Source of the DNA: a virus
DNA: 39,525 bases
Direction: 5' to 3' (one strand)
Virus record (IMG/VR): IMGVR_UViG_3300034140_000003
Coordinates: 1 to 39,525 of that record
Made by a program: the position numbers and the translations under genes. Numbering within the stretch: the stretch's first letter is position 1; every line of letters begins with the position of its first letter. The notes beneath the pieces are model-generated. The model was not told where the DNA came from and did no database searches. It saw nothing but the letters and a program-made list of their open reading frames with translations. Of this stretch, positions 641-33,839 are shown in pieces.

Positions 641-670
641 TGTGTATGTTATGAAACCATAATCTGCCCA
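641..670 (-). promoter_or_regulatory. 30-bp palindromic operator, copy 1
   Basis: Matches TGTGT-N3-TTATG-N4-CATAA-N3-ACACA except that the right outer block is GCCCA. It lies 75 bp ahead of the small terminase ATG. CATAA occurs on both strands, so it could carry a -10 in either direction. Read leftward there is no -35 match at the right distance. Confidence 0.75.
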
Positions 671-963
671 ATTTTTAGAGTCACTTGTGATTCAGTAAGG
701 TTAAAGGGGTATCCCCGGAAATCGCGGTCAACCACCATCCCCCTTCCAATTCGTTTCCTTCTAATCCGTCGTCAGGGGATGAGAGTCAAAAATCGGCCAC
801 GCACGGGGAGGTGGTATACGACTAAACACCCCGCACAGCGCACCCCCGCCTGCCGCAGACCCACCCCCCATGGTCTTGGTGGCCTGGTCAGGGACAAGGA
901 AAACGCGGTGTTGTTGGCACGCAACATGGCTGACAGGGGAGGAGGCCGAGGGTTTGTCCCTAG

Positions 964-991
964 TTGACACGATCATCAGCCATGCCATAAT
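964..991 (+). promoter_or_regulatory. Sigma70-type early promoter
   Basis: TTGACA (964-969), a 16-bp spacer and CATAAT (986-991), about 50 bp before the first rightward gene. The same architecture precedes that gene's paralogue at 3760. Confidence 0.7.
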
Positions 992-1043
992 TCAATCACA
1001 CCACGGCAATGGGCTGCGGTGACAACCTAACGAGGTGAATGAC

Positions 1044-1568
1044 ATGGCTACCAAACAATCAACGATCACGACAACAACCCTGGTCGGCCCAAATGACAAC
1101 GACTATGGGCTCAAATTGACGTTTGACAATGGGCAATCCCTGGAACTTTATGTCGGCCAATTAGATGCGGGCGTGGCACGACAGGCCCTGTTGCACGGGC
1201 TGAAACAAAAGTTAGTCGATGCCGCTGCGATCTCACGGAATACGGATACGGGCCGCGCGGCATCCACCGATGACAAATACAATGCGGTGAAGGAGGTCTA
1301 TGATCGGTTGGTGTCGGGCCAATGGAATAAGACCCGCGAGGGCGGTGGTGGCGCCGGTGCAGGTGGATTGTTGTTCCGCGCCCTGGTTCGCATGTACCCG
1401 AAAAAGACGGAAGGGGATTTGCGTACATACCTCGACGGGTTGGATGATAAGCAACAAGCGGCGTTGCGGAAAAACCCGAAGGTCGCCGCCGTGATCGCGG
1501 AGATCCGTGCGGAATCTGCCAAACCCGATGATGACGCGGATGATTTGCTCGCGGAATTGGAAGGGTGA
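1044..1568 (+). CDS. Early protein, paralogue A (unknown function)
   Basis: This 174-residue protein is not a family I recognise. It is visibly paralogous to the 192-residue product of 3760-4338. Shared segments in order are a beta-type region with a [RT]-[LF]-[DT]-[FN]-NG pattern, L-x-x-G-x-W-x-x-x-(R/K)E-x-x-G, (K/R)ALV followed by a helix, ALR(K/N)NPK(V/I), and an acidic C-terminus D-x-L-L-x-E-L. The centre contains a Gly-rich loop (GGGGAGAGG). ATG at 1044 is chosen over GTG at 1035 because GAGGTG sits 7 bases before it. A strong promoter at 964 makes it the first rightward, probably earliest, gene. The acidic end recurs in a third early protein (8363-8587). Takeover or regulation is plausible but unproven. 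Confidence 0.75.
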   Translation: MATKQSTITTTTLVGPNDNDYGLKLTFDNGQSLELYVGQLDAGVARQALLHGLKQKLVDAAAISRNTDTGRAASTDDKYNAVKEVYDRLVSGQWNKTREGGGGAGAGGLLFRALVRMYPKKTEGDLRTYLDGLDDKQQAALRKNPKVAAVIAEIRAESAKPDDDADDLLAELEG

Positions 1569-1577
1569 TTGACCATC

Positions 1578-1739
1578 ATGGGAAAGCCGAACGCAAAAAG
1601 CGAACATGATGCGAATTGGGAACTTGTCCGGCGCACGGGTTGGGAGGTCGGGAAAGGCTGGACACGACCGCCACCGCGACGCCCACGGTTTCGGGCCCGA
1701 TGGATGGCAACCCTACGCCGTATGGGGCTGATTCGATAG
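1578..1739 (+). CDS. Small basic protein, 53 aa (unknown)
   Basis: Begins 9 bp after the preceding stop and encodes 53 residues, very rich in Arg and Trp, with a PPPRRPRFRARW stretch near residue 31. The ribosome site is weak (GGAAGGG is 13 or more bases upstream). A good terminator follows 25 bp after the stop, so the transcript covers it. It is plausibly a small nucleic-acid-binding phage peptide. The weak start signal and short length leave real doubt. Confidence 0.45.
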   Translation: MGKPNAKSEHDANWELVRRTGWEVGKGWTRPPPRRPRFRARWMATLRRMGLIR

Positions 1740-1764
1740 GATACTGACCACTGATCAGCGCATG

Positions 1765-1790
1765 ACACCACCCTAACCCGGTGGTGTTTT
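1765..1790 (+). terminator. Rho-independent terminator
   Basis: Perfect 8-bp stem ACACCACC/GGTGGTGT around a 7-base loop, ending in a T run. It closes the first early transcription unit. Confidence 0.75.
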
Positions 1791-1809
1791 CGCTTGTGGG
1801 GGCGGTGTA

Positions 1810-1839
1810 TGCGCGGGTTATGGATTCATAACATACACA
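1810..1839 (+). promoter_or_regulatory. 30-bp palindromic operator, copy 2
   Basis: TGCGC-GGG-TTATG-GATT-CATAA-CAT-ACACA. It lies just after the terminator and before the long non-coding block. No -35 match is present at the correct distance. Confidence 0.75.
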
Positions 1840-2463
1840 TATCGGGCGGGTGGGGGCAGCTCGGACGTTTCCCGGCCAACCCCGTCGTTTCCCGATGCCC
1901 CGCCAACCCCCCAAATCGGGCCGTGGCGCGGTTTCCGTGACCAGCTCGCCACCCACGTATCCCCGGCCTATTCCGTTGCCTATTTACCCGGGTTTATCAT
2001 ATTTCCATTATTTCCCCGGATTTAGCAATATGCCCCCCGGAATACGGCGGAAGATCCCCGATTGGCTGTTGAGATGCAGCCCCCCCATACTTCCCCTCTC
2101 GTGATGTGTCGTGACGTATTGGGATATTGAGTCCATTGGGATTTTTTTTTTATTTAAGACCTCACACACAAGGGAGGAAGTGGGGTGTCTGCGTCTCAAC
2201 GACGAATCGGGGAATTACGGGGGGATTCCGGGCAACCCTCGAACACATTCCGGGCATATGGATTGATATACGGGTAAATGGGGATAATTCCCGGTAAATC
2301 TTGCAAATGAGTTATTGACAGCCCCGGGGATATCCGCACAATTGATATAGGCATGGAGGTCGGCTGGGGAGTTTTGGGGATGATTTTACCGGGAATTTGG
2401 CTTATACCCGTTCAACCTTACTGACCACATGCTATTGCCATCATCAATTTTGGAGTACTGACC
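1840..2463. other. Non-coding block with GC-skew reversal (candidate replication origin)
   Basis: No convincing gene lies in these 624 bp. A hand count gives about 50 G and 93 C on the + strand for 1861-2100, but about 78 G and 45 C for 2161-2400, with a T10 run (2142-2151) at the switch. Inverted copies TTCCCGGTAAATC (2288-2300) and GATTTTACCGGGAA (2382-2395) flank the promoter at 2315. Short CCGGG-centred words recur. Skew reversal, an AT-rich easily melted tract and repeats fit a replication origin, but this is inference. Confidence 0.4.
2315..2342 (+). promoter_or_regulatory. Sigma70-type promoter
   Basis: TTGACA, a 16-bp spacer and CACAAT, about 120 bp before the GTG start at 2464. It lies between the two arms of an inverted repeat. 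Confidence 0.5.
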
Positions 2464-3619: not shown

Positions 3620-3632
3620 TACGAATCCCCGC

Positions 3633-3660
3633 TTGACAGCTCGCATGCCTGCTGCATAAT
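3633..3660 (+). promoter_or_regulatory. Sigma70-type early promoter
   Basis: TTGACA (3633-3638), a 16-bp spacer and CATAAT (3655-3660). Same layout as the promoter of paralogue A at 964. Confidence 0.75.
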
Positions 3661-3759
3661 CAATCCATCGACACCGTGTTTGGGGCATACCGGCAAGCAC
3701 CCCTAACGGAACGTCGATTAATCAACAATTGCCTGCCAACGCCTATCTGGAGAAAAACC

Positions 3760-4338
3760 ATGGCTACTACGAAAAAGCAAGAACCACAAATCGAAACCGT
3801 GACGATGGAGGACAGCACCGCTGATCGCCCGCACATCGTGGAATTTGCCGGCAAGCGCAAGCTGCTCAAATCCGCATCCGTGACGGAAGATGGCCAAGTG
3901 CAAGTTCGCCTGGACTTCCGCAACGGCGCCACGCGACTGTTCACCGTCCCCGCTAACCTGATGGCGAAGTTCGCTGCCCACGGTGCGGAACAAAAGCTGG
4001 GCGATGAGATCGCTGGGTTGGAAGATGTTGAGGATTGTGTTATTGCGATTGATGAGTTGATCGACCGTTTGTATAACGGCGACTGGACTCAACGCAAGGA
4101 ATCCAATGGCCTGGCCGGAACCTCGGTGTTGGTCAAAGCCCTGGTCGAAGTCTTCGGCAAGACCGTGGAACAGATCAAGGTGTTCCTCAAGGACAAGAGC
4201 CACGCGGAAAAGGTTGCCCTGCGCAACAACCCCAAGATCAAGCCCACGGTCGAGAAGATCGAAGCGGAAAAGGCTGTTCGCGGTAGCAAGGTCAACACCG
4301 ATGCGTTGTTGGGTGAGCTGGACGACTTGGCGGTCTGA
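3760..4338 (+). CDS. Early protein, paralogue B (unknown function)
   Basis: This 192-residue protein is the paralogue of the 1044-1568 product. Aligned features are VRLDFRNG near residue 47, LYNGDWTQRKE near 110, KALVEVFGKTVEQIKVFL near 130, ALRNNPKI near 154 and an acidic end (DALLGELDDL). It has a longer charged N-terminus. ATG at 3760 is chosen over an upstream in-frame start at 3676 because CTGGAGAAAAACC directly precedes it. It has its own near-consensus promoter, implying high early expression. The function is unknown; small size, strong promoters and duplication suggest a host-takeover or abundant nucleic-acid-associated role. Confidence 0.8.
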   Translation: MATTKKQEPQIETVTMEDSTADRPHIVEFAGKRKLLKSASVTEDGQVQVRLDFRNGATRLFTVPANLMAKFAAHGAEQKLGDEIAGLEDVEDCVIAIDELIDRLYNGDWTQRKESNGLAGTSVLVKALVEVFGKTVEQIKVFLKDKSHAEKVALRNNPKIKPTVEKIEAEKAVRGSKVNTDALLGELDDLAV

Positions 4339-4587: not shown

Positions 4588-4616
4588 TTGACGTGTGTGG
4601 GTTATGGTGGCATAAT
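4588..4616 (+). promoter_or_regulatory. Sigma70-type promoter under the operator
   Basis: TTGACG (4588-4593), a 17-bp spacer and CATAAT (4611-4616). The palindrome 4594-4623 starts at the base after the -35 and covers the spacer and -10. A protein bound there should block RNA polymerase. Confidence 0.7.
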
Positions 4617-4623
4617 ATACACA
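4594..4623 (+). promoter_or_regulatory. 30-bp palindromic operator, copy 3
   Basis: TGTGT-GGG-TTATG-GTGG-CATAA-TAT-ACACA, an exact match to all four conserved blocks. The geometry relative to TTGACG and CATAAT is identical to copy 4 at 8299. Confidence 0.85.
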
Positions 4624-4662: not shown

Positions 4663-5202
4663 ATGCCACACGGCACACCCAACGCGTTTGAACTTGAACA
4701 AGACGCGCAACTCGAGGACTTGCTTGACGCCCCTGCACGGAAACCCCAGCCGGATGCAGCAGAACCGGACGAGCCGGATGCCGATTTCGACGACCTCAAC
4801 GCCCTGCTTGCCGAATCCCTCACGACCGTCAAGGAAACCGCCGAGGCCAAGATCGCCCGCGAACGCCTCAAACGCGGCGGGATCACGGCTGAGGAACGTC
4901 GGGCCGATGCCGAACGCATCGCGGCTTGGGAGGCGAAGCACGAATGGCTGGACGTGGCCAATGTTGGCCAATTCTCCCGGTTTTCATGCGGCTGCGGAAC
5001 TTCCTACACCGTGTTCACTCAACTCATGGTCCGTCAGCGCCATCGCCACCTGCGCGATAGCTTCCGCTGGCAGCAGCAACAAACCGCCCAAGCGGCCCTG
5101 CCGAATGAAACGGTCATCGCGGATTATCCGGTCAAGACCTGCGCGGGCTGTGCGGATAGTAAAGGTTGGATCATGGCCCACGCAACGGAGTGGAAGTTTT
5201 GA
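4663..5202 (+). CDS. Acidic, coiled-coil, zinc-ribbon-like early protein
   Basis: 179 residues in three parts: an acidic low-complexity N-terminus (1-50, with DDLNALLAESL), a charged coiled coil (55-90) and a C-terminal part with C109-x-C111 and C160-x2-C163, which could bind one zinc. Between the cysteine pairs lies an Arg/His/Gln-rich segment (RQRHRHLRDSFRWQQQQ) that could contact nucleic acid. ATG at 4663 has AGGAGAC upstream. It is the first gene behind the operator-controlled promoter, so it is a candidate for autoregulation. No family recognised. Confidence 0.75.
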   Translation: MPHGTPNAFELEQDAQLEDLLDAPARKPQPDAAEPDEPDADFDDLNALLAESLTTVKETAEAKIARERLKRGGITAEERRADAERIAAWEAKHEWLDVANVGQFSRFSCGCGTSYTVFTQLMVRQRHRHLRDSFRWQQQQTAQAALPNETVIADYPVKTCAGCADSKGWIMAHATEWKF

Positions 5203-5204
5203 TC

Positions 5205-5462: not shown

Positions 5463-5705
5463 ATGATTACTTCCCTCACAGTTTGGCAAGCCACAGACGG
5501 CACACAATTTCCCACAGAAGACGACGCGATCCGATATGAACGAAAACAATCAGTGCTCGATTTCCTGGAAATCAAAGCCGCTGTCTTCACATCGAAAGAC
5601 GCGCAGGACCTCGTTCTCTTAATCCTCAACTACCTCGCCCAACCCGGGTCACCTGTCAAGATCGACTACCTCAACTCTCCGGAGCCTAAAAATGCCAAAG
5701 CCTAA
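5463..5705 (+). CDS. Small phage protein, 80 aa (unknown)
   Basis: The N-terminus (WQATDGTQFPTEDDAIRYE) has a pattern often seen in short phage proteins: a beta hairpin ending in a DG-x-x-F-x-t motif, then a helix with A-x-x-YE. Function is unknown. Its 3' end overlaps the next gene by 14 bp. Confidence 0.65.
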   Translation: MITSLTVWQATDGTQFPTEDDAIRYERKQSVLDFLEIKAAVFTSKDAQDLVLLILNYLAQPGSPVKIDYLNSPEPKNAKA

Positions 5706-5958
5706 GAAAATCATGCGGCCTGTGCGGAAGAACCTGTCCTTCCCGGAGGACCTCGCCGCCCGCGTTGATCTCATGCTGTACTCTGAACTTGAGCAAAAGA
5801 TTCCTCACGGGGCTTGGCAAGGGTTTTTAATGGGATTGATGCGGGAGTATTTTGCAAAGGTGGATGCGGGGAAAAGTGTTCAGATGATAGTAGACCTTCC
5901 ACCTGAACATAAAATCCCTATGAATTCCGATGCTTTTGAAGATGCGGATAAATCATGA
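5692..5958 (+). CDS. Ribbon-helix-helix-like small protein, 88 aa
   Basis: A basic N-terminus leads into a strand (VRKNLSFPEDLAARVD) and two helices, a layout resembling ribbon-helix-helix DNA-binding proteins, where RKNLSFP would be the DNA-contacting strand. The family assignment is by pattern only. It overlaps both neighbours (14 bp at the front, ATGA at the back). It is one possible reader of the palindromic operators, although ribbon-helix-helix sites are usually shorter. Confidence 0.6.
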   Translation: MPKPKKIMRPVRKNLSFPEDLAARVDLMLYSELEQKIPHGAWQGFLMGLMREYFAKVDAGKSVQMIVDLPPEHKIPMNSDAFEDADKS

Positions 5959-8292: not shown

Positions 8293-8321
8293 TTGACGTG
8301 TGTACGTTATCCGCACATAAT
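8293..8321 (+). promoter_or_regulatory. Sigma70-type promoter under the operator
   Basis: TTGACG (8293-8298), a 17-bp spacer and CATAAT (8316-8321). Same arrangement as the promoter at 4588, with the palindrome starting directly after the -35. Confidence 0.7.
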
Positions 8322-8328
8322 ATACACA
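8299..8328 (+). promoter_or_regulatory. 30-bp palindromic operator, copy 4
   Basis: TGTGT-ACG-TTATC-CGCA-CATAA-TAT-ACACA. One base differs from the conserved blocks (TTATC). It covers spacer and -10 of the promoter for the 8363 gene block. Confidence 0.85.
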
Positions 8329-8362: not shown

Positions 8363-8587
8363 ATGACCTCTGCACAATCCCTCTCCCTCACCGCCAAAAT
8401 CTCCGAATGGCGACAAAAGGCCCGCGAGAACACCCTCACTCACGAGGAAATGCGGGAGGCAATCCAAGCCCTTCGCCGTGATCGCGCGGGCGTGCCACAA
8501 GCCACCTCCGGTACTCGGGCCCGTGCCACGGCGAAAAAGGCCCCAATCAACTCGGATGATTTGTTGTCTGGACTTGAGGACCTTTGA
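8363..8587 (+). CDS. Small protein sharing the acidic C-terminus of the early paralogues
   Basis: 74 residues: a charged helical N-terminal half (SEWRQKARENTLTHEEMREAI), a basic linker (ARATAKK) and an acidic end (NSDDLLSGLEDL). That end closely resembles those of the 1044 product (DDADDLLAELEG) and the 3760 product (NTDALLGELDDL), although the rest is unrelated. The shared tail suggests a common docking peptide. ATG has AGGAAACC upstream and lies about 35 bp after the operator. Confidence 0.7.
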   Translation: MTSAQSLSLTAKISEWRQKARENTLTHEEMREAIQALRRDRAGVPQATSGTRARATAKKAPINSDDLLSGLEDL

Positions 8588-13680: not shown

Positions 13681-15063
13681 ATGTCATCTATCTTACTTTC
13701 TGAAATCATCATCAAACCCAACCGGCAACGCCAGGAATTCACCCCTGAGCACATGCAGGAGCTCAAAAACTCCATCGAAGATCTTGGTCTGATGCACGCC
13801 CCAGTCTTGCGTAAGGAAACCGCAGGATGGGCACTTGTTGCTGGTGAGCGACGCTTGCGGACTATTTCTGAAATCTTCGAACTCGGTGGGTCGTTCGTTT
13901 ACAACGGCCAGCGGTACGAAGGCGGGATGGTGCCCTTTGTCAACATTGGTGATTTGACAGACCTGGAAATCGAAGAAGCGGAGCTTGATGAAAACCTTAA
14001 GCGTAGGGACCTGTCTTGGCAGGAACACGCGGCGGCGGTCGAGCGACTTCATAACCTTCGGGTTAAGCAGCACCCTCCAAAAGTATCCGAGACAATCTAC
14101 CAAGATCAGATCGTTACTGCCAGCACCCCCGGCCACACCATCGCCGACACCGCTAAAGAAATCCGTGGCAGTTCCGAAGGCATCCATCAAGAAACCACCC
14201 GCCGCGAAATCATCGTTGCACGCCACCTGTCCAACCCCGCTATCGCCAACGCCAAATCCGCCGACGAGGCCTTCAAGATCCTCAAACGCCAAGAAGAGCA
14301 AACCAAGAACATCGAACTGGCCAAGACAGTCGGAGCAACCTTCAACGCTGATCTCCACCACCTCCTAAACATGGATTGTCTATCCTACATGGAGACCTTA
14401 GCCAACAGCCCAACCACTGCCAAGTTCGACGTCATCTGCACCGACCCTCCATACGGCATGGGAGCAGATTCCTTCGGTGACGGCGCCGGCAAGCTATCCG
14501 GTATCGAGCACCACTACGATGATTCTTACGCTTCATGGAAAAAGCTAATGACTGCGTGGGCTCCCTTATCTTATGCAGTATGCAATCCCCAAGCCCACGC
14601 TTACGTCTTCTGTGACCCGGACAACTTCCACGAACTGCGCGACCTCATGCGCGCCGCCGGCTGGTACGTCTTCCGCACCCCGCTGATCAACTACAAACTA
14701 AATTCCGGTCGCGTCCCCCTTCCTGACCAAGGCCCCCGCCGGCAGTACGAAATGATCCTTTACGCGATCAAGGGCAAGAAAACAGTCACCCACATCTACC
14801 CAGACGTCCTATCCACCAACTCTGACGAGAACCTATCCCATGGAGCGCAAAAGCCGGTCGCAGTCTACCAAAACCTCCTTCAGCGCTCTGTCCGCCCCGG
14901 CGACCGCCTCTACGACCCATTCTGCGGCACCGGCCCTCTCTTCGAAGCCGCTCACGGATTTAAATGCACTGCAGTTGGCACTGAACTTAATCCAGAGTAC
15001 TTTGCAATGTCGCTCAAGCGTATCCAGCGACTCAAAGCCCTTGAGCAACCCTCGCTCCTCTGA
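13681..15063 (+). CDS. ParB-like domain fused to a DNA methyltransferase
   Basis: 460 residues. Residues 1-125 form a ParB/Srx-type N-terminal domain (RQRQEFTPEHMQEL, AGERRLR at 54-60). Residues about 225-455 form a methyltransferase with the catalytic DPPY motif (255-258) before the SAM-binding DPFCGTG motif (412-418), the beta-class order of N6-adenine or N4-cytosine methylases. No cognate restriction gene is present, so it probably protects phage DNA or marks it for regulation. A 259-bp gap precedes it, holding only an isolated TGTGTATG half-site (13512) and no full palindrome. Confidence 0.85.
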   Translation: MSSILLSEIIIKPNRQRQEFTPEHMQELKNSIEDLGLMHAPVLRKETAGWALVAGERRLRTISEIFELGGSFVYNGQRYEGGMVPFVNIGDLTDLEIEEAELDENLKRRDLSWQEHAAAVERLHNLRVKQHPPKVSETIYQDQIVTASTPGHTIADTAKEIRGSSEGIHQETTRREIIVARHLSNPAIANAKSADEAFKILKRQEEQTKNIELAKTVGATFNADLHHLLNMDCLSYMETLANSPTTAKFDVICTDPPYGMGADSFGDGAGKLSGIEHHYDDSYASWKKLMTAWAPLSYAVCNPQAHAYVFCDPDNFHELRDLMRAAGWYVFRTPLINYKLNSGRVPLPDQGPRRQYEMILYAIKGKKTVTHIYPDVLSTNSDENLSHGAQKPVAVYQNLLQRSVRPGDRLYDPFCGTGPLFEAAHGFKCTAVGTELNPEYFAMSLKRIQRLKALEQPSLL

Positions 15064-15073: not shown

Positions 15074-15421
15074 GTGTGGATCGGGGGAAGTTATCCGAAC
15101 CCAAACCCTCCGGCGAAGAAACCCCTTGGCCGACCCAGGGGACCTAATTACGTCCCCAAGCCTGGGCCGATATTCAAGCCGGAGCCGTATGAGATAAAAC
15201 TACACGCCGTCGTCACCCTCGAAGAGCATGTCAGGGCTTTGATCCAGTTCTACAAAGGGGGACGGGAAGCGAGCAAGCAGCTTGGGATTGGCTACAGTTA
15301 TCTCCGGGAACTCGGCAAAGGTCATAGAAGTAACCCAAGTCTCCGGGCCCTTGACGTCCTTGGCTTAAAAGCCTCGAACGGAATCTTAAAAGTTTACAAA
15401 GTGAAAAGACTACCAAAATGA
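15074..15421 (+). CDS. Small basic HTH-type DNA-binding protein
   Basis: About 115 residues from a GTG start (assumed; no strong ribosome site, and longer in-frame starts would run into the methyltransferase). The N-terminus is Pro/Lys/Arg-rich with LGRPRGPN, reminiscent of an AT-hook. Residues 55-95 look like a helix-turn-helix (REASKQLGIGYSYLRELGKG). It ends in an ATGA overlap with the next gene. A transcriptional regulator is likely, and it is my first candidate for the reader of the 30-bp palindromes; no evidence links them directly. Confidence 0.6.
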   Translation: MWIGGSYPNPNPPAKKPLGRPRGPNYVPKPGPIFKPEPYEIKLHAVVTLEEHVRALIQFYKGGREASKQLGIGYSYLRELGKGHRSNPSLRALDVLGLKASNGILKVYKVKRLPK

Positions 15422-16187: not shown

Positions 16188-18554
16188 ATGCAAATATCCC
16201 CCACAGGCCCGGCACCAGCCCGGATCATGATTGTCGGCGAAGCTCCGGGTGACGAGGAAATCCGTCGGGGCGAACCCTTTGTCGGCGCAGCAGGCCAGGA
16301 ATTATCCCGCATGCTTAACGAGATCGGTATCTCCCGCAACCAGTGCTTCATCACCAACGTCGTCCGCGTCAAGCCCCCTGGCAATGACATGACCTCTTTC
16401 ATGCCCGTGCGCAAGGGCGACATTACCCCCCAGCACGGTCTCGTTCGGGATAAGATGTGCCTGCCGCCCGTTTGGGAGGGACTCGAGCTCCTCAAGCGAG
16501 AAATCGAGATGGTGCGTCCAAACGTCATCATCGCCTTCGGCAACGTCAGCCTGTGGGCACTGACTGGCAAGTCCGGCATTATGTCATGGCGTGGGTCACG
16601 GCTCGAGTGTGATCTCGACCTAGCCCTGGACTACAAGCCCAAAGTTATCCCGACCTACGCCCCCTCCGCCGTCCTTCGCAATTGGGCATGGCGCCCGATC
16701 GTCCTCCAGGACCTGCGGCGGGCCAAGGGGCATTCGGACAGTCGAGATTTCAAATGTGTGGATTATCGTTTCATAATCCGACCAGATTTCTCTACCGTCC
16801 TGGAGTATCTATCCGTCATTGCCAAGGCCGTTACTGCTGCCCCCTTCAAGCTCGCAGTCGACATTGAAACCCGTGCGGGGCACATTGCCTGCATCGGTTT
16901 CGCGTGGTCAAAACGGGAAGCCCTGTGCATCCCCCTGATGTGCGTCGAACGGCTCGAAGGCTATTGGACTGAAGAGGAAGAAACCGTCCTCATGTTCGCG
17001 CTTTACCAAATCCTCACCCACCCCAATTGTATCGTCCTGGGCCAAAACTTCCTCTACGACGCGCAGTACTTCTGGCGCCATCTCCACTACCTCCCCAATC
17101 TTGTCCGCGACACCATGCTCTCCCAGCATGTCTGTTTTTCCAACATGCAGAAGGGACTTGACTTCCTATCCTCCATGTACTGCGAGGACCACGTATACTG
17201 GAAGGACGAAGGCAAAGAATGGGACGCGAAAACCGGCGAGGATCAACTCTGGTCCTATAACTGCAAGGACGCGGTTATCACTTACGAAGTCGATGAAACT
17301 GAGCAGCGGACAATTGACGCGATGCAGCTCCGCCCTGTTCACGATTTCCAGCAAGCCCTGTTCTGGCCCGTCCTCCGTACCATGAATCGTGGGCTTCGTG
17401 TCGACACCGCACGGCGTTCCGCTTTCGCCATGACCCTTATGGACGAGATTGCTAAGCGCGAGCAATGGATGTTTGACGTCCTCGGGGAATCCGTCAACAT
17501 CAAGTCCCCGAAACAGATGCAGGAGTTATTCTATGGAGTATTCGGACAAAAGCAACAGTTCAATCGAAAGACAAAAACTGTCACCTGCGATGATGAGGCA
17601 CTTTCTATCATCGCTGATCGCGAACCTATCCTACGACCCCTTATCCGAAAAATACAGGAGCTGCGGTCTCTTGGTGTGTTCCTCAGCACTTTTGTCAACG
17701 CACCTCTCGACATTGATAGCCGAATGCGAAGCAGTTTCAACATTGCTGGAACGGAAACATACCGTTTTAGCTCTTCAACCAATGCGTTTGGAACCGGACT
17801 CAACCTGCAGAATATACCTAACGGTGGAGACTCAAACGGACTCGAACTTCCTAATGTTCGCAGTCTCTTTATACCCGATCCAGGATATACCTTTTTCGAC
17901 ATTGACCTCGGTTCAGCAGACTTACGAATCGTTGTTTGGGAGGCTGATGAGCCGGAGATGAAACGGATGCTCAAGGAAGGCCTGGACCCCTACACCGAAG
18001 TTGCGAAGGAATTCTATCATGATTCAAGTCTCACGAAGAAGGACCCCCGCCGTCAATTGTTCAAGGCGTTCTGCCACGGAACCAATTACCTTGGTACGGC
18101 TAGGGGCCTTGCCGAGCGGCTTGGTCTGTCTGTCAATGAAGCCGAAAAAACCCAACGGTGGTATTTCGAAAAGTTCCCACGGATCAAAAAGTGGCAGGAC
18201 GATCTCAAGGATCAGGTCTTCAAGCGCCGTATGGTACAGAACGTGTTTGGCTATCGCTGCTACTTCTTTGACCGAATCGAGGGGACGATTTTCAACCAAG
18301 CCGCGGCCTGGATTCCTCAAAGCACGGTAGCCTGCCTCATCAATCGCGCCTATGTAGAAATCGACAAATCCCTGCCCGAGGTCGAAATCCTCCTCCAGGT
18401 CCACGATTCCCTGGCCGGGCAGTTCCCCACTTCCAAGCCGCACCTAGCCCAGGCTATTATCACAGCTTCCGAAATCGCCTTGCCATACTCTGACCCCTTG
18501 ACCATTCCTATCGGGATCAAGATGTCAGACAGGTCTTGGGGCGAATGTAAATGA
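16188..18554 (+). CDS. DNA polymerase I-type polymerase with N-terminal UDG-like domain
   Basis: 788 residues. Residues 1-175 resemble family 4 uracil-DNA glycosylases (GEAPGDEE 17-24, FVGAAGQEL 31-39, TNVVRVKPPGN 56-66), but the usual His-Pro-Ser motif is TYAPS, with Ala at 158, and the Fe-S cysteine pattern is absent. The 3'-5' exonuclease has D225-x-E227, N287-x3-D291 and Y357-x3-D361. The polymerase has motif A (D573 to R580), motif B (R622, K626, Y634) and motif C VHDS (738-741). This is the replicative enzyme. UDG-PolA fusions are known (for example phage SPO1); the His-to-Ala change suggests the glycosylase part is non-catalytic. Confidence 0.93.
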   Translation: MQISPTGPAPARIMIVGEAPGDEEIRRGEPFVGAAGQELSRMLNEIGISRNQCFITNVVRVKPPGNDMTSFMPVRKGDITPQHGLVRDKMCLPPVWEGLELLKREIEMVRPNVIIAFGNVSLWALTGKSGIMSWRGSRLECDLDLALDYKPKVIPTYAPSAVLRNWAWRPIVLQDLRRAKGHSDSRDFKCVDYRFIIRPDFSTVLEYLSVIAKAVTAAPFKLAVDIETRAGHIACIGFAWSKREALCIPLMCVERLEGYWTEEEETVLMFALYQILTHPNCIVLGQNFLYDAQYFWRHLHYLPNLVRDTMLSQHVCFSNMQKGLDFLSSMYCEDHVYWKDEGKEWDAKTGEDQLWSYNCKDAVITYEVDETEQRTIDAMQLRPVHDFQQALFWPVLRTMNRGLRVDTARRSAFAMTLMDEIAKREQWMFDVLGESVNIKSPKQMQELFYGVFGQKQQFNRKTKTVTCDDEALSIIADREPILRPLIRKIQELRSLGVFLSTFVNAPLDIDSRMRSSFNIAGTETYRFSSSTNAFGTGLNLQNIPNGGDSNGLELPNVRSLFIPDPGYTFFDIDLGSADLRIVVWEADEPEMKRMLKEGLDPYTEVAKEFYHDSSLTKKDPRRQLFKAFCHGTNYLGTARGLAERLGLSVNEAEKTQRWYFEKFPRIKKWQDDLKDQVFKRRMVQNVFGYRCYFFDRIEGTIFNQAAAWIPQSTVACLINRAYVEIDKSLPEVEILLQVHDSLAGQFPTSKPHLAQAIITASEIALPYSDPLTIPIGIKMSDRSWGECK

Positions 18555-21517: not shown

Positions 21518-22738
21518 TTATAGATTATCGGCCCAGCCGGTGATATAAACGCCATTGGCGGTGGCGTTACCCGAAGTGAAATACAGCTCCCGAGCCTCAA
21601 GAACCATGGTGAAGTTTCCGTAATCAATACAGAATGCACCGCCGCCGACCTGAAACCCCTGCACCCCTGACCCCCCAGAGGCGGAGGCCTGCACGAAGGC
21701 GTTTGAGTTAGCCCCGCCCAGCAAGCTATACCCCGTGACCTTTGAGGCGGTCACGGGGATTAACGCGGCAAGGGACACTTGCACCAACCCCGTGTTCCCT
21801 GATATTGCCAGCGGGAACCCCGTTATATTTGACCCGGCGGCCGGGGCATAGGCAAAGTCCCGTCCCCAACTCTTCATCTTGAGTGGGTATGTGTTCACCG
21901 TGGCATCTGTGCGCGCCCAGCCAACTCTGATCTTCGAGGTGTATCCTGCCGGCAGCACCGGCGCCGTACCAGATAACGAAATGAGTAATGCCGAGACCAC
22001 GGAAGTAGGATTATAGATGATCCAGAGGGAGTACCAAGTATTCGCGGCTAACGCGCCAGTATCCAGAGCTGAGGCGGCGGATTGCGTAATGTTAACATTA
22101 CTCAGGACAATGGTGTCAACTGTCCCACGAAGAAGTAGAGCTTCGGCAGTGACTGTGATATTGAGATCCAGGCCGGTAGTGGATGTTTGCAGATTCTGAA
22201 AAGCGGAAAGCGGCGCGGCAGTCGCTAAAACTGTTTGGGCGATGGAAAGGGCGGTAGCCTGGACCTGCCCAAGTCGTGGAATATCCGCAGCAGTTACCGC
22301 GTCCGCCGTAGTTGATAGTACTCCAGTAGAAGAGATCGCGCCAATAACAGAACCTGCGGCGTTAGCAAACAAAACGGGGGAAGCCCCGTGCCCGCGTATA
22401 TACGTCGAGGCGTTCACGTCAAAGAAGAACCGTTCCTTGGTGTCTGCCGAAGTCTGCCATACTGCAGTCGCGCGGGCTATGTAGGCTGCTGTCGTCTGCG
22501 CCAGTGTAGTGAATTCCTGGTTCGCCGTAGCATTCAACGCATTCGTGAACTTATGGTTCGTCAGGTCCACGTTCCCGGTAATCGGCGCTTGCCCGTCTCG
22601 GACCAAGGTCAGTGCCAGCCCCGCGCGAATATCATCAATCACCGCGTTGAAGTAAGCTGCCCGAATCGTATCGCCCGCAACTGCCGGGTACGTCGGGGGT
22701 GGTAAGGGGTCAAATCCGCCTGTGCCGTTGTATGGCAT
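21518..22738 (-). CDS. Tail fibre / receptor-binding protein
   Basis: 406 residues. The N-terminus (FDPLPPPTYPAVAGDTIRAAYFNAVIDDI, in pieces) and GQAPITGNVDLTNHKFTNALNAT look like a virion-attachment region with a short repeat. The middle is Ala/Thr-rich with predicted beta-helical or coiled-coil character, and the end is a Gly/Ser-rich receptor-binding type. It would recognise the host surface. A palindromic operator lies 15 bp upstream of the ATG, with AGGAGACACTC as ribosome site. Confidence 0.75.
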   Translation of the reverse strand: MPYNGTGGFDPLPPPTYPAVAGDTIRAAYFNAVIDDIRAGLALTLVRDGQAPITGNVDLTNHKFTNALNATANQEFTTLAQTTAAYIARATAVWQTSADTKERFFFDVNASTYIRGHGASPVLFANAAGSVIGAISSTGVLSTTADAVTAADIPRLGQVQATALSIAQTVLATAAPLSAFQNLQTSTTGLDLNITVTAEALLLRGTVDTIVLSNVNITQSAASALDTGALAANTWYSLWIIYNPTSVVSALLISLSGTAPVLPAGYTSKIRVGWARTDATVNTYPLKMKSWGRDFAYAPAAGSNITGFPLAISGNTGLVQVSLAALIPVTASKVTGYSLLGGANSNAFVQASASGGSGVQGFQVGGGAFCIDYGNFTMVLEARELYFTSGNATANGVYITGWADNL

Positions 22739-22752: not shown

Positions 22753-22782
22753 TGTGCGGATTATGCCGCCATAACCTACACA
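22753..22782 (-). promoter_or_regulatory. 30-bp palindromic operator, copy 5
   Basis: TGTGC-GGA-TTATG-CCGC-CATAA-CCT-ACACA on the + strand. It occupies the 45-bp gap before the tail fibre gene. There is no -35 match upstream in the gene's direction. Confidence 0.8.
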
Positions 22783-22783: not shown

Positions 22784-24844
22784 TTATTGGTCAGCCGTCG
22801 CAGTTGCTGCGCCGATGGTGGAAAAGATGGCCAGTGCCTTTCCGCTCATAGGCGGCACTTTGCCAAGTTCGGCCAGCTTAGCGGCGCCCTCGGGGGTTGT
22901 CAAGATCTTGTCAAATTGCTGGAGGGTCTTTGCCATGGTAGCGTCCTCGATCCGCCGGGCTACCTGCTCAAAGGGCAGGAAACCGAAGACACGAAGGGCG
23001 TCAGCGCCGTAGGATTTCCCACTGAGTTGGAACACTTCCTCGCGTTGCAGGCCACCGACAGTCGCCGGCCGGGAGCGGAGCGCCTTCGTGATCTGGGCAA
23101 AGTTCTCCAGCCCCTTGACGACCTCCGCTGGGGGGAGGTTGAAAGATTCCGCGGCGGCTGAGGCTCCTTGTCGGAGCCCATTCCATTGATTCCGATTAGC
23201 GAACAAGGCAGAGAACACCTTTTCCGCTGCGTCGGGGGAGGCAAGCTGCGCGCCACCAATCGTCGGGGCAAAGGATTCGCCGAGCTTCCCACTAAGGTAA
23301 GTCTTGAATGCGTCAGGAAATGCTTCCGGATCGACCTTTTTCAGCTCCGCCGCCAGGGTGCGGATATTGCTTCCCTTCGCCATCGGGTCTTCCCCTTTGT
23401 TGAACAGGGCGACGAGTTTCGCTTGCGATGCCGCGACGTCTGGCCGAAACCCTCGAGGTGTCGCCAGCTGCCCAACCGGCCCTTGTTTCAGGGGATCGAT
23501 CACGTCACGGCTGATCTGGGAAAACATGCCTTCGGCAGCTTTTAACTCAGGCGAGGCCTCTTGCAATTTCTGGTTCATCGCCCCAGCGACTTTCTTCACA
23601 AGACCCGCAGAGCGCGGATCGGGCGGGGTTAGCGGCGTGCCTTTATAGGGCCCCGTCATGTCACCAATCAGGGCGTCATAGTCCAGGGCGTGAGTCGGGG
23701 GTACGCCTGTTCCCGGGGCAACTTTCAGCCGACCAAGGGAATTTTCGAAAGTTTGCGCAGCCTGTTGTGGGAGGCCTGGAGCCTGCTGGGCATCTGCTAG
23801 CAGATCAGCCAGTTTTCGTCGAAAATCCGGTGGCAAATTCCCCGCAGCTTCGTACAACGGTTTAACTGCTGCGGAACGATCCCCCTTGGCTTGGTTCATG
23901 CGGCCAGTTGCGGCAGCCTGCACGTTGTTCGCCGCCACATCCGCCTGACGAATCTGCCCTGGCAAACCTCCAACTGTCGTGTCAGCCAACACCTCCAACT
24001 GCCCCGGTTGTTGCCGTAAGCTCTCCTGCACGGCATTACCTGAACGGTTGTTTGCCAGGACATTACGGATGGTAGTCAAGTTCCCGGCTGGCGCCCCCAC
24101 CCCTTCCAACGCCTGCGCAAGGTCCATCTCAACGCCTTTGCCGTTAGACATGCTCTGAAACGTCTGTGCTTTTTTCAGCATGTCAGGTGTCAGGCCTTCC
24201 ATAGCCTCGTGGGCAAGGGTGGTGATCTGCGGGGAGGCATTAGCCAACTTTCCAGCGACACCGGCAGTTCCTACTCCGCCAAGCAAAGCCCCGGCAAGTC
24301 GGCCAAGAGTGCTGTCGTTCGTCAGCCGCCCGCCAACTTCTGAGCCAACTCCGCCGCCAGCGCCAATCACCCCCGCGCGAATCGGTGCGGCAAACCCACC
24401 AGGGCCGGCCAAGCCCCCTGCCAGCCCCTGCGTCGCTGCCGATTGCCACTTGTCGGCTGCCGTGACTGGCTGCGTACCCATGTTTTGCAATGCAGCACTG
24501 TTCGCCATTGGGCTTTTCGGCTTGCTCGTAGCAATCTCTTCCGGTGACTTCCCAGCGATCCGCATACCAAGATCTATCGGCAGATCGGTCAGAGAATTCG
24601 CCGCATCACCCAGCAAAGCCGGTAGAGCCGCTGCGCCTTTAAACGCATCACTGGCCAGCAATTTTCCCTTGTGAATTGCCGTGTCGAGAAAGCTCGGCTC
24701 TTTCCCCCCGTCTAACTTTGCCACAGGTTTGTTAAATTCCTGCTGCGCACGGGCGGCTACTGATTCCGGCGTGGCGTTATCCGGGGCATTTTGATATACA
24801 TGCTGGGAGCCATCGCCGAAGGTGACAGTGATATTGCGTGGCAT
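22784..24844 (-). CDS. Large virion (ejection-type) protein
   Basis: 686 residues. It opens with a beta segment (ITVTFGDGSQHVYQNAPDNATPE, in pieces) and then a Gly/Ala-rich stretch (130-210) resembling membrane-interacting segments, followed by a long helical region rich in Gln and Lys. This composition is typical of podovirus internal proteins that enter the cell envelope during DNA ejection. No lysozyme or protease motif is seen. The assignment depends on position between the nozzle and fibre genes. Confidence 0.6.
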   Translation of the reverse strand: MPRNITVTFGDGSQHVYQNAPDNATPESVAARAQQEFNKPVAKLDGGKEPSFLDTAIHKGKLLASDAFKGAAALPALLGDAANSLTDLPIDLGMRIAGKSPEEIATSKPKSPMANSAALQNMGTQPVTAADKWQSAATQGLAGGLAGPGGFAAPIRAGVIGAGGGVGSEVGGRLTNDSTLGRLAGALLGGVGTAGVAGKLANASPQITTLAHEAMEGLTPDMLKKAQTFQSMSNGKGVEMDLAQALEGVGAPAGNLTTIRNVLANNRSGNAVQESLRQQPGQLEVLADTTVGGLPGQIRQADVAANNVQAAATGRMNQAKGDRSAAVKPLYEAAGNLPPDFRRKLADLLADAQQAPGLPQQAAQTFENSLGRLKVAPGTGVPPTHALDYDALIGDMTGPYKGTPLTPPDPRSAGLVKKVAGAMNQKLQEASPELKAAEGMFSQISRDVIDPLKQGPVGQLATPRGFRPDVAASQAKLVALFNKGEDPMAKGSNIRTLAAELKKVDPEAFPDAFKTYLSGKLGESFAPTIGGAQLASPDAAEKVFSALFANRNQWNGLRQGASAAAESFNLPPAEVVKGLENFAQITKALRSRPATVGGLQREEVFQLSGKSYGADALRVFGFLPFEQVARRIEDATMAKTLQQFDKILTTPEGAAKLAELGKVPPMSGKALAIFSTIGAATATADQ

Positions 24845-30224: not shown

Positions 30225-30233
30225 GGTATAACC

Positions 30234-30836: not shown

Positions 30837-30885
30837 ATACTTCCCCAGGAAGATAGGTGGATGAGATTGGATTCTTATATTCCCC

Positions 30886-30918
30886 AAAAAACCCGAGGCA
30901 GCTTGTGACCACCTCGGG
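30886..30918 (-). terminator. Rho-independent terminator (leftward)
   Basis: Read leftward: CCCGAGG, a 13-base loop, CCTCGGG and then T6. The perfect 7-bp stem lies after the decoration-like gene. It should cap capsid transcripts and reduce read-through into the tail genes. Confidence 0.85.
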
Positions 30919-30953
30919 AACGCCCTGGGGAGCGGAACGTAATTGGTGTCGAC

Positions 30954-31211: not shown

Positions 31212-31242
31212 GGAAGGCCTTTCAGTGCAGGGTGGTTGAAAA

Positions 31243-31272
31243 TGTGTGGGTTATGGTTCGATAACCCACACA
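31243..31272 (-). promoter_or_regulatory. 30-bp palindromic operator, copy 6 (near-perfect palindrome)
   Basis: TGTGT-GGG-TTATG-GTTC-GATAA-CCC-ACACA. The outer 12 bases of each side are exact reverse complements. It fills the gap between the capsid stop and the decoration gene. Confidence 0.85.
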
Positions 31273-31277
31273 ACTCA

Positions 31278-32267
31278 TCAAGCCTTCAGGACGCCCTGCA
31301 GGCTGCGGTTGGAGGTGGTGAGGTTACCCATCCACAAGATTGGCACAATGGCTGCGTCTTGGTTGTAAGGCTTCATCTCGTCCATGATCTCCATATCGGC
31401 GTCTTTGTGCACCACGAGGTCCATGTAGTCCGTGTTCAGGAAATACATGTGGTTCGTGGGGATACCGGAGCCGCCATCATAGATCACGTCAGCGGTCTTG
31501 TACTTCAACGACACGAAACCACCCGAAGCCTTGACACCCGTAGCGGACGAACCGTCGGAGGTGTAACGCTTGAACGAAACTTGGGAGTTTTCGAAGAAGG
31601 TGAAGTAGTTGGTATCCGCAACGATCAGGTCGGGCTGGTCATCGCCACGAGTCAAGGCCAGCCACAGGGGCAGCATCAACGATTCAATCGTCGTGGCTGA
31701 CGGGGTGATTGCGGCACCGCCTTGGAGAGGGGCGGCTGCGGACTGCACGATGTTGCGCCAGAAAGCCCAGGCAGACGAATCGATACCACCAACTGTGCCC
31801 AGACCGTTATCCGCCACGAGGGCTTGCAAGCCACCGATTTGGTTAGGCAGGGTGCCGTCGCTGTACACGTCAACGGAGAAATTGTTCTTGAACGTGCGCA
31901 TGGCGTTCTTCATCCGGGCCTTAACCAGGTTGATGATTCGCGATTCGCCTGAGTTCGTGCGGAGTTCCATGCCGGAAGCCACGACGTTGATGGCGATCTG
32001 GCGCCATTGGTACTCAGCAGCGGAGATGGTGTCGCTCGCGCCGATATTCAGGATGTCATAACCGGAATAGCGCTGGTAGGTGGAATTCGCGGCGTAGTCG
32101 AGGGGAGAGACGATTGTCAGTCCGCCGTCTTCCTTGCGCTTATTGCCCTTGGCGTTGATCCGAGCCAGCAAGGCGTTGTTCTTGCTGACGTTGTCCTTGA
32201 TGTCTTTGGAGTGCTTGCGGAACGTGGTGGTTACCAGTTCCGTGAAAATTGCATTGGGAGATGCCAT
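31278..32267 (-). CDS. Major capsid protein
   Basis: 329 residues. Opening ASPNAIFTELVTTTFRKHSKDIKDN and later RMKNAMRTFKNNFSVDVYSDG, IGGLQALVADNG, DLIVADTNYFTFFENSQ, and an end with IVPILWMGNLTTSNRSLQG match HK97-fold phage capsid proteins that lack an N-terminal delta domain and use a separate scaffold. The scaffold gene lies immediately upstream, and a decoration-like gene downstream. ATG follows AAGGAACAATC. Confidence 0.85.
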   Translation of the reverse strand: MASPNAIFTELVTTTFRKHSKDIKDNVSKNNALLARINAKGNKRKEDGGLTIVSPLDYAANSTYQRYSGYDILNIGASDTISAAEYQWRQIAINVVASGMELRTNSGESRIINLVKARMKNAMRTFKNNFSVDVYSDGTLPNQIGGLQALVADNGLGTVGGIDSSAWAFWRNIVQSAAAPLQGGAAITPSATTIESLMLPLWLALTRGDDQPDLIVADTNYFTFFENSQVSFKRYTSDGSSATGVKASGGFVSLKYKTADVIYDGGSGIPTNHMYFLNTDYMDLVVHKDADMEIMDEMKPYNQDAAIVPILWMGNLTTSNRSLQGVLKA

Positions 32268-32300
32268 GATTGTTCCTTGGTTTCGCTGAAAATGTTAAGT

Positions 32301-33362
32301 TCACGCCCGACTGTTTATCACAGCCAGAGTTTCTGCAAGCGTGTCGTCCATGCTTCCCAGCGGGGTCGTAGCACTCCCACTTTTCGCTTTCGTCCGCACA
32401 TTCGCTGCAGTCAGTTTCCGAGCATCCGCGACCTTCTTTTCCGCCGCTTCCCGTGCCTTGGCGGAAGCCTCCGCTTGTTGGCGGGTGAGTTCCTTGGCAC
32501 GGACGGCGGGGTTGGTCCAGATGGCTTTTTCGTAAGCTTCCTGCAACGTGGAGCAAACCCCTTTTTCAATCAAGGTCACCATGTCGTTGGCAACGTCTTC
32601 AAAGTGAGGGTTTGCGGGATCGGCAGCGAAGGCCTCGATAGCTTTGGTCTGCTGTTCGCGGGCCTGGGCTAGACGAGATTGCTCCCCCGCCGATAGTTTC
32701 GAGTGTAGTTGTTGAACTTCCGTTTGCAAGGCCTTGACTGCCGGGTCGATGAAAGAAGGTTCGTCGGCGGGAGTTAAGGTGGTGAGATCGATCTTGTAAT
32801 CGGCAGCGATTTGGCGGAACAGGGTGTTTTTCTGTTCAGGCGTGCCGAGTGCCAGCGTGTGGTGCGCTGTCATCAGGTGCCCGACTTGAGCGACCGGATC
32901 AAGGCCATGCTGGCGAAGAGCGGGAAGGAAAGGGTCGAGGACAGTCCGAAAGGATTTGCCATACGCGGCCTCGGACTTGTAGCCTTCGATCCCCTTGAAG
33001 ATGTCGTCTTCCCGCTTTAGGATTTCTTGCCGAACTTGAGCAGGGAGAGTCGCCCACGTGTCAGCAGCTTCTTTGCGCCAAGTTTTAGGCGCAATTGCCA
33101 GGGGATCGATGGCGGCGTCACTCCCGCCGGGAGGATTACCGGAATCGTCGGCAGCGGGGTCTCCATCAGGACTTGATCCTGCAGGCGATTGGCCAGGAAT
33201 ATCCCCAGCGCCACTCCCAGGATTAGCAGGAGAAGGGCTAGGATCAACAGAAAGATCGACGTCGTTTGCATCATTTACCTCATCAGTGTCAGTGTCAAAA
33301 CCAAGTCCACTGGAGATTTCACCAACAGCGGACGACATATCAAACTCGAATTCCCCAGGCAT
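32301..33362 (-). CDS. Capsid scaffolding protein
   Basis: 353 residues. The first 90 are very acidic and Ser/Pro/Gly-rich. The centre is helical, and the C-terminal third is a long charged coiled coil (ELTRQQAEASAKAREAAEKK) with a basic end. This composition and placement between portal and capsid genes are those of podovirus scaffolds, which direct procapsid assembly and then leave. ATG has AGGAG upstream. A second open frame lies inside its acidic region. Confidence 0.8.
   Translation of the reverse strand: MPGEFEFDMSSAVGEISSGLGFDTDTDEVNDANDVDLSVDPSPSPANPGSGAGDIPGQSPAGSSPDGDPAADDSGNPPGGSDAAIDPLAIAPKTWRKEAADTWATLPAQVRQEILKREDDIFKGIEGYKSEAAYGKSFRTVLDPFLPALRQHGLDPVAQVGHLMTAHHTLALGTPEQKNTLFRQIAADYKIDLTTLTPADEPSFIDPAVKALQTEVQQLHSKLSAGEQSRLAQAREQQTKAIEAFAADPANPHFEDVANDMVTLIEKGVCSTLQEAYEKAIWTNPAVRAKELTRQQAEASAKAREAAEKKVADARKLTAANVRTKAKSGSATTPLGSMDDTLAETLAVINSRA
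33017..33271 (-). CDS. Possible overprinted membrane protein inside the scaffold gene
   Basis: 84 or 85 residues in another frame of the same strand (starts ATGATG at 33274/33271). GAGG lies 6 bases before the second ATG. The N-terminus has one long hydrophobic segment (about 5-28, FLLILALLLLILGVALGIFLA split), then Pro-rich sequence and a basic tail (KLGAKKLLTRGRLSLLKFGKK split). The scaffold's acidic low-complexity codons may create hydrophobic codons by chance in this frame, so its reality is uncertain. A lysis or membrane role is conceivable. Confidence 0.35.
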   Translation of the reverse strand: MQTTSIFLLILALLLLILGVALGIFLANRLQDQVLMETPLPTIPVILPAGVTPPSIPWQLRLKLGAKKLLTRGRLSLLKFGKKS

Positions 33363-33370
33363 ACTAACTC

Positions 33371-33805
33371 CTAAATCCCCGCTGTACTGCGGGAGATGTC
33401 AACGTCGAGGCCAGATTGGATTTCGGCAGCAAGCTGCTCTCTTTTAGCTGTCGGCAGGGCCTCAACGAACTGTTCGACAGTGGTATCAATTTCGATATCT
33501 TCCGCGGCTTGGGTGGCGGCTGCGGAGGATTTGTAACGGGCAGCGGCTTCAGATTCCCCGGATTCCAGAACCCGGCAGCCATGGCGCTTGAGGTTTTCCT
33601 CATGCTGCCGACGACCTTCGATCCGTTTGCCAGTGATGGGACAATCATAGGCGGCAATATCCCCCCGGACAAGGGGGGCAGAAAGTTGCCGCTCCATGAA
33701 AAATGCACACTTGGGGCAGCGTTCCGGCTTGTCAATTTCCGCTATCTTTTTGAACACGTCCCTGCGGGTAGTGCAGGTGGGGCAGCGGTAGTCGTAAATT
33801 GGCAT
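33371..33805 (-). CDS. FmdB-type zinc-ribbon protein
   Basis: 144 residues. The start MPIYDYRCPTC with C8, C11, C30 and C33 (RCPKC) is the FmdB zinc ribbon; C55 lies outside it. The rest is charged, helical and acidic. FmdB domains are common in small bacterial and phage proteins and may bind nucleic acid or protein. Its place between portal and scaffold is seen in other podoviruses. The operator 33810-33839 ends 5 bases before its ATG. Confidence 0.75.
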   Translation of the reverse strand: MPIYDYRCPTCTTRRDVFKKIAEIDKPERCPKCAFFMERQLSAPLVRGDIAAYDCPITGKRIEGRRQHEENLKRHGCRVLESGESEAAARYKSSAAATQAAEDIEIDTTVEQFVEALPTAKREQLAAEIQSGLDVDISRSTAGI

Positions 33806-33809
33806 GATT

Positions 33810-33839
33810 TGCGCCTGTTATGGTTCTATAATCTACACA
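33810..33839 (-). promoter_or_regulatory. 30-bp palindromic operator, copy 7
   Basis: TGCGC-CTG-TTATG-GTTC-TATAA-TCT-ACACA on the + strand. It overlaps the end of the portal gene and almost touches the FmdB start, so bound protein or a start site here would leave practically no leader. Confidence 0.75.

Follow-up and report, generated by a model that had tools for sequence, protein, structure and literature searches.

The 39,525-nucleotide viral record IMGVR_UViG_3300034140_000003 of IMG/VR (positions 1 to 39,525; hereafter the window) carries a recurring 30-bp palindrome, which raises the question of what these elements do and which protein reads them. Seven copies had been described in an initial annotation of the letters alone as a family of operators. 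We consider it moderately probable, from the comparison of related sequences, that the palindromes are dispersed operators of a phage-encoded regulon and are read by two proteins of the phage, a small protein encoded at 5692-5958 and a ParB-methyltransferase fusion encoded at 13681-15063.

The window was scanned with the pattern TGTGTNNNTTATGNNNNCATAANNNACACA, allowing up to 3 mismatches, and exactly seven matches were recovered, at positions 641, 1810, 4594, 8299, 22753, 31243 and 33810, while 100 dinucleotide-preserving shuffles of the window gave none. The seven copies initially reported are therefore real (7/7), and the reported half-site counts were also found to be right, with TTAT in 14/14, TTATG in 11/14 and TGTGT in 10/14 half-sites. 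By a repeat search and a symmetric weight matrix one more copy, the eighth and a weaker one, was identified within the DNA polymerase open reading frame (ORF): TGTGTGGATTATCGTTTCATAATCCGACCA, at 16755-16784, which was assigned to the family because its position is conserved in relatives. The eight palindromes, none of which has a strand, and the gene which contains the eighth are as follows.

641-670, palindrome 1: upstream of the minus-strand terS-like gene (start about 608), with TTGACG 21 nt past the palindrome
1810-1839, palindrome 2: where an apparently non-coding 0.6 kb begins, with genes 1047-1568 and 2464-2898 on either side
4594-4623, palindrome 3: over the spacer, -10 box and start region of promoter 4588-4623, before gene 4663-5202
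8299-8328, palindrome 4: within promoter 8293-8328, before gene 8363-8587
16755-16784, palindrome 5: within the DNA polymerase ORF, in the linker that joins the uracil-DNA-glycosylase domain to the exonuclease domain
22753-22782, palindrome 6: in the gap upstream of minus-strand gene 21518-22738 (tail fibre by inference)
31243-31272, palindrome 7: in the gap that follows the gene of the major capsid protein (31278-32267, minus strand)
33810-33839, palindrome 8: in the gap after the portal gene 33833-35926 (minus strand)
16188-18554, plus strand: uracil-DNA-glycosylase / family A DNA polymerase fusion, containing palindrome 5

The ORF tables place all seven originally named copies at gene boundaries, as the initial annotation had stated, and only the added in-gene copy departs from this; an internal promoter or a separate start for the polymerase part of 16188-18554 is possible. 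The same annotation had held that the triplets between the blocks are free and do not covary. The first part did not stand, as the last base of the triplet is a purine in 14/14 half-sites of the seven copies and position 8 is A or G in 51/52 consensus half-sites of the relatives. The closest relative, with 92% identity over 34,854 aligned bases, has all eight copies; the 20 specified positions there differ at 4/160 letters (one of these being a gap at the alignment edge) compared with 65/960 in the flanks.

Beyond this relative the letters of the window are of little use as a probe. A relaxed form of the window pattern matched 5 contigs of the whole viral collection, and multiple copies were found only in the close relative G001; with 3 mismatches allowed, 2/41 records matched (G001, and a non-relative with one single match), as did none of 55 further relatives. 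As the window letters find multiple copies only in G001, a letter-free discovery of palindromes was needed. Relatives were collected with the portal protein (56 loci) and with the early protein encoded at 3757-4338 (80 loci, the best of 111), the contigs of the two collections being partly shared, and 69 genomes or contigs including the window were searched for families of 30-bp palindromes with no letters assumed. G041 (a non-relative) and G039 (distant, with tandem repeats) were left out of the 69. The shuffles used as controls for the letter-free searches, and for the arm-compensation test given below, keep base composition in 300- or 400-base blocks but not dinucleotides.

Of the 69 genomes or contigs, 55 have a 30-bp palindrome family of their own, among them the window and its close relative. 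All families have the same layout, in which the outer block spans about 6 bp, the inner block is built around TTA[T/C/A] (positions 9-12) and the central 6 bp vary, while the spelling of the outer block changes from genome to genome (TGTGT, CGACCG, CCGGGG, TGCGCA, CACCCG, AACCGG, GACGTC, AGTAGG, GGGCCA and others). Each genome longer than 33 kb has 6 to 16 copies. For the counts that follow, a match to the small protein was also required, and G061 and G066, which are above the cut-off, were dropped as odd or weak, leaving 449 sites over 52 genomes; there are near-duplicates within this set, its effective number being 42. No family passed the cut-off in the other 14 of the 69 (G023, G027, G033, G036, G003, G009, G065, G069, G074, G082, G084, G087, G090 and G094), of which G003, G009, G090 and G027 have one to a few site-like palindromes, mostly at the expected places. 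Likewise, no 30-bp family above the genome cut-off was found in Caulobacter phage Kuura, Microcystis phage Mel-JY34 (which has the small protein) or Vibrio phage VS-ABTNL-3, their information content (IC) values being 11.2, 11.4 and 10.8, respectively, versus up to 10.5, 10.2 and 10.4 in shuffles.

The positions of the sites were counted across the 52 genomes, the chance expectation from site density being 0.05-0.10 per boundary window. A site was found upstream of the terS-like gene in 37/41 genomes, downstream of the capsid gene in 25/26, upstream of the tail-fibre gene in 19/26 and downstream of its neighbour (22784-24844) in 19/22. Early in the genome, a site lies upstream of gene 4663-5202 in 35/50 genomes and of gene 8363-8587 in 25/52, and the portal gene is followed by one in 7/28. 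The DNA polymerase gene contains a site in 30/48 genomes, and 30 of 31 such matches fall at codons 183-197. By the same count a site is almost never found upstream of 1047-1568 (3/49) or 5692-5958 (1/52), and never upstream of 3757-4338 (0/50) or inside the helicase (0/50) or ParB-methyltransferase (0/50) genes. The initial annotation had asked whether copies stay at the same boundaries in relatives while their sequence drifts; in relatives with the same gene order they do, as judged from the letter-free families and these positional counts.

Ten genomes (G046, G047, G050, G051, G052, G056, G059, G062, G066 and G068) are without the window's capsid, portal and large terminase genes and have kept the early module; nine of the ten carry a clear palindrome family, that of G066 being the weak one which was dropped. 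As these genomes keep both the early module and the palindromes, module swapping with retained regulation is suggested.

The relation of the sites to promoters was then considered, for which the following features of the window are needed.

4588-4623, plus strand: promoter TTGACG-17-CATAAT, with palindrome 3 over its spacer, -10 box and start region, preceding gene 4663-5202
8293-8328, plus strand: promoter TTGACG-17-CATAAT, with palindrome 4 over its spacer, -10 box and start region, preceding gene 8363-8587
964-991, plus strand: sigma-70-like promoter TTGACA-16-CATAAT of gene 1047-1568, without an operator
3633-3660, plus strand: sigma-70-like promoter TTGACA-16-CATAAT of gene 3757-4338, without an operator

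The promoters at 964 and 3633 are the two strongest plus-strand early promoters of the window, and neither has a site. Over the 52 genomes a promoter-like pair was found at 12/37 of the sites before 4663-5202 and at 11/25 of those before 8363-8587, and the -35 hexamer directly adjoins the palindrome at 5 and 7 of these, respectively (12/62 early sites). Most early sites showed no promoter-like pair, so that promoter overlap is not universal. At the terS sites a promoter-like pair lies downstream in 21/38, while such pairs occur in 1/25 capsid gaps and 0/19 fibre gaps, compared with 141/2080 random segments. The sites thus fall into three classes of use: some lie on a promoter, others next to one, and the rest away from sigma-70 promoters. 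In the small sample of 21 terS promoters, the offsets of the -35 hexamer from the first base of the palindrome cluster near 40, 51, 60-62, 71 and 83-88, a spacing of roughly one helical turn.

Which proteins change together with the operator letters was assessed by aligning 13 conserved proteins over the 52 genomes and comparing their columns with the letters of the operators. A first mutual-information scan was led by near-invariant columns and was replaced by entropy-matched and tree-based scans. Two proteins stood out.

5692-5958, plus strand: ribbon-helix-helix-like small protein of 88 aa, proposed to read the outer block, with R12, N14 and S16 in its strand
13681-15063, plus strand: fusion of a ParB-like N-terminal domain and a helix-turn-helix with an N6/N4 DNA methyltransferase, in which residues 162-171 (186-195 in alignment numbering) co-change with the operator

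Four stretches came out on top of the entropy-matched mutual-information scan (2011 columns, 1315 windows), namely the recognition-helix region of the ParB-methyltransferase, the polymerase codons which hold the operator, polymerase residues 142-148 and the beta-strand of the small protein, the second of these serving as a built-in positive control. Within the strand, R12, N14 and S16 (30, 32 and 34 in the alignment) score high, unlike L15 and F17, which would fit a strand with every second side chain turned to the DNA. Residue 14 tracks operator positions 2 and 5 (z 4.2 and 3.9), which mirror each other about the centre of the block, and residues 12 and 16 go mainly with positions 1, 6 and 7; this pattern is as expected from a two-fold symmetric sheet centred on the outer block. 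Pairings of residue 14 with position 2, from which relatedness was not removed, were K with G in 11/11, E with C in 5/5, G with A in 5/5, H with G in 5/6 and T or S with C in 4/5, N being mixed (10 G, 8 C, 2 A). When K or H with G at position 2 was followed on a tree of the other proteins, 6.9 of 9 independent pairs changed in the same sense and 0.5 in the opposite sense (median p 0.03). In the tree-based co-change scan (2203 columns, 1479 windows), ParB-methyltransferase residues 162-171 and the strand ranked first for positions 1-7, followed by 1047-1568; for positions 1-6 alone the strand holds the best three seven-column windows, and for positions 7-8 the ParB-methyltransferase recognition-helix region came first.

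The initial annotation had named two candidate readers. The ribbon-helix-helix-like protein at 5692-5958 was borne out to the extent that its likely contact surface tracks the operator letters. The helix-turn-helix protein at 15074-15421 drops out, as it is present only in the window and its closest relative among 18 genomes compared.

The ribbon-helix-helix assignment is a weak one, hence "-like". The structural model has an extended start and helices at 19-29 and 41-58, and there are slight hints in an antitoxin chain, EndoAI, matching on the strand (E 0.27) and in HicB-like antitoxins matching 2/57 members.

Starting from what is observed here (the sites, their positional conservation, their drift, the overlap with promoters and the co-variation with two proteins), we infer binding, the direction of regulation and its timing as follows. 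Each half-site would consist of a phage-specific outer block (positions 1-6) and a nearly constant inner block (about positions 8-12, RTTAY). The outer block is most likely read by the 5692-5958 protein, with one dimer per half-site placing its beta-strand in the major groove, and the ParB-methyltransferase fusion probably reads the inner flank of the same site. At two early operons binding should repress, because the site covers the core promoter (the -35 box adjoining it and the -10 box inside it); since the small protein is encoded in one of the two, feedback would result. At the terS-like gene the site would act from beside the promoter; within the polymerase gene, and in the late gaps, where there is hardly any sigma-70 promoter, its probable role is to affect elongation or to serve for recruitment. 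The products of 1047-1568 and 3757-4338, with strong promoters and no operator, would be made first.

Several results weigh against the small protein and the fusion as readers of an operator. The small protein is present in 11 of the 14 genomes without a family, and G087 is without a family yet its strand is the same as that of two family-bearing phages. Searches of 5692-5958 against Pfam and PDB sequences gave no confident family match and Foldseek returned nothing at an E of 0.001 or less, and its structural models are of monomers. In the mutual-information scan, polymerase residues 142-148 outrank the strand, which is unexplained. The tree-based co-change scores are modest and not far above background: single columns of other proteins outrank the strand (residue 12 ranks 7 and residue 14 ranks 164 of 2203), the in-gene operator codons are weak (best column rank 30), and a window of 1047-1568 reached 1.69 for the unconserved centre (positions 14-15), higher than the strand's best of 1.64 for positions 1-6. 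Due to this last comparison it is the location of the co-change peaks, not their height, which favours the two proteins as readers. The division of labour between them is not clean, as the ParB-methyltransferase also tracks positions 1-6. In whole-protein distances (34 genomes) the small protein gave a partial r of -0.06, compared with 0.28 for 3757-4338 (reached in 1 of 500 permutations). Finally, 17 loci served as a hold-out, in which choosing the operator model by the nearest strand gave a median rank of 8th of 52, versus 14th when it was chosen by the nearest 3757-4338 relative, which is better for the strand, if mildly so, and not decisive.

A more specific form of the proposal, which on present comparisons appears unlikely, is a two-protein address system of lytic phages in which a ribbon-helix-helix protein would read the outer block and a ParB-type CTP clamp-methyltransferase the inner block. 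Were it true, the transcription programme would be set at the same eight addresses from which a methyltransferase would be guided to slide along phage DNA and no other, and every phage lineage would have a spelling private to it.

Among the alternatives, the one that survives best is that a ParB-type CTP clamp loads at the sites, the fusion sliding from them to methylate phage DNA or to silence at a distance together with the small protein, as KorB does with KorA; we regard this as improbable, if well worth weighing. The N-terminus of the fusion matches Spo0J, ParB and Noc chains, and the GE[RT]R and EN-x-x-R positions hardly vary among about 50 orthologues, except that T replaces the first arginine of the former (its third residue) in 17/50. 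KorB has the phosphate motif GERRxR and operators both near and far from promoters (PMC11790492), and on these likenesses a CTP clamp activity of the fusion is possible. The recognition-helix region of the fusion is among the top co-changing windows, and sites also occur at promoter-less places, even within a gene. In addition, the cultured Vibrio phage L291 (MF497422), which has the fusion and in which no small protein was detected, contains an inner-type palindrome, CAATCG-N6-CGATTG, in four exact copies (shuffles gave at most 2) and with the same centre length. However, the sites are unevenly spread and fixed at gene boundaries, with two of them on core promoters, and the co-changing ParB stretch carries indels and follows clades.

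It is also conceivable, and we think rather unlikely, that another conserved phage protein (3757-4338, 1047-1568 or the terS-like helix-turn-helix protein) reads the sites and that the signal in the strand is a by-product of shared ancestry. Such a reader would agree with 3757-4338 having the best whole-protein correlation with the dialect of the operator, and with windows of 1047-1568 coming next for positions 1-7 and first for the centre, but not with the peaks for the outer letters, which fall on two recognisable DNA-reading surfaces and, in mutual information, alternate over residues 12, 14 and 16.

That the palindromes are RNA hairpins (terminators or processing sites) or bare promoter elements is highly improbable: they do lie in intergenic gaps and two coincide with -10 boxes, but their arms are uncompensated (159 of 4939 cells have both arms deviant yet paired, versus 228.6 expected under arm independence), both arms carry the inner block in mirrored form, no match to Rfam attained the gathering score of its family, and the capsid and fibre gaps have hardly any promoter. 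An RNA hairpin and an Rfam element were both rejected on these grounds, in agreement with the earlier suggestion of DNA contacts. The half-sites of the host regulators CRP and FNR are TGTGA and TTGAT, respectively; the letters of the sites differ from these and change from phage to phage, so that a CRP/FNR-like host operator was also rejected, the difference from these half-sites having been noted from the outset.

The window itself is a tailed phage genome of 39.5 kb. Its terminal 156 bp are repeated (1-156 and 39370-39525, 99%) and in the close relative G001 one site recurs 39,523 bases apart, from which the record is probably one full genome length. Early and replication genes are on the plus strand and capsid and tail genes on the minus strand, and the gene content includes a Dda-like helicase, a Sak4-like protein, the ParB-methyltransferase fusion, the uracil-DNA-glycosylase/PolA fusion, a primase-like protein, portal and terminase. 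The terS and tail-fibre genes were named by inference from their place and the capsid gene after the annotation of MW202489; the label terS-like reflects a place before the large terminase gene and a helix-turn-helix look, no family search having been made on this protein. No similar phage record was found for the first 25 kb at the DNA level. A search for a tyrosine integrase (PF00589) in the window found none, serine integrases and episomal lysogeny being outside that search, and no relatives of 3757-4338 were found in 84,980 bacterial and archaeal species genomes (in a search seeded on two peptide patterns) or in 72,556 plasmids. On the basis of these negative results the phage is probably lytic, and the regulon would therefore time a lytic programme, not lysogeny.

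Two inverted repeats were noted around palindrome 2. The apparently non-coding 1840-2463, which adjoins it, contains a 52-nt inverted repeat (2036-2087 / 2181-2232, 75% complementary) and is a candidate replication origin, and a long-distance inverted repeat joins 692-731 and 2385-2424. Among the early proteins, the profile of the first (1047-1568) also matches the second (3757-4338), and the two look like paralogues. Similar acidic tails end 1047-1568 (DDLLAELEG), 3757-4338 (DALLGELDDLAV) and 8363-8587 (DDLLSGLEDL), perhaps a shared docking motif.

No title listed in the literature searched, which excludes most subscription papers, describes this operator system, and PMC2784084 did not prove relevant to it; the results point to an undescribed genome-wide control system. 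Through such a system control can be mapped and read across a large family of phages, mostly uncultivated, in which the operators stay in place, one of them inside the polymerase gene, while protein and DNA letters change together, and it offers a natural series of about fifty protein-operator pairs for working out a recognition code. If the part assigned to the ParB-methyltransferase is true, transcription control and DNA modification would be joined in one clamp-like protein.

The proposed readers and sites were compared with known systems. The ribbon-helix-helix repressors include Arc, Mnt, MetJ and antitoxins; like these, the 5692-5958 protein is short, with two modelled helices and a putative N-terminal strand whose alternating residues would face the DNA, but it has no confident family or structure match, and its proposed site is 30 bp long with a separate inner block. 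In the temperate Streptomyces phage phiC31, conserved inverted repeats in many intergenic gaps are bound by the repressor c. The occurrence of inverted repeats in many gaps of one phage is shared with the window, while the temperate lifestyle and the different repressor set phiC31 apart, by description and not by sequence.

KorB of plasmid RK2 is a ParB-family protein with a small DNA-binding partner, KorA (PMC11790492). The ParB-family membership, the GERR-type motif (GETR in the 17/50 noted above), the near and far sites and a small partner, in the phage a proposed one, are common to both systems, but in the phage a DNA methyltransferase is joined to the ParB part, the partner is ribbon-helix-helix-like, and both proteins seem to read one composite site. 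In the Cluster A mycobacteriophages (L5, Bxb1), the immunity repressor Rep has dispersed sites, some in promoters and most not, with a genome-specific consensus which drifts with the repressor (PMC6550527). These stoperators are 13-bp sites oriented with transcription (PMC6550527) and, by the title of PMC9283540, asymmetric. Many dispersed sites with a genome-specific consensus were also found in the present phage group, but as a 30-bp two-block palindrome, with other proposed proteins in place of a temperate immunity repressor, with no PF00589 in the window and probably with another lifestyle. The Cluster A operator/stoperator system is the nearest known kind, and the palindromes described here are best classed as dispersed phage operators of a variant type that stands outside that family.

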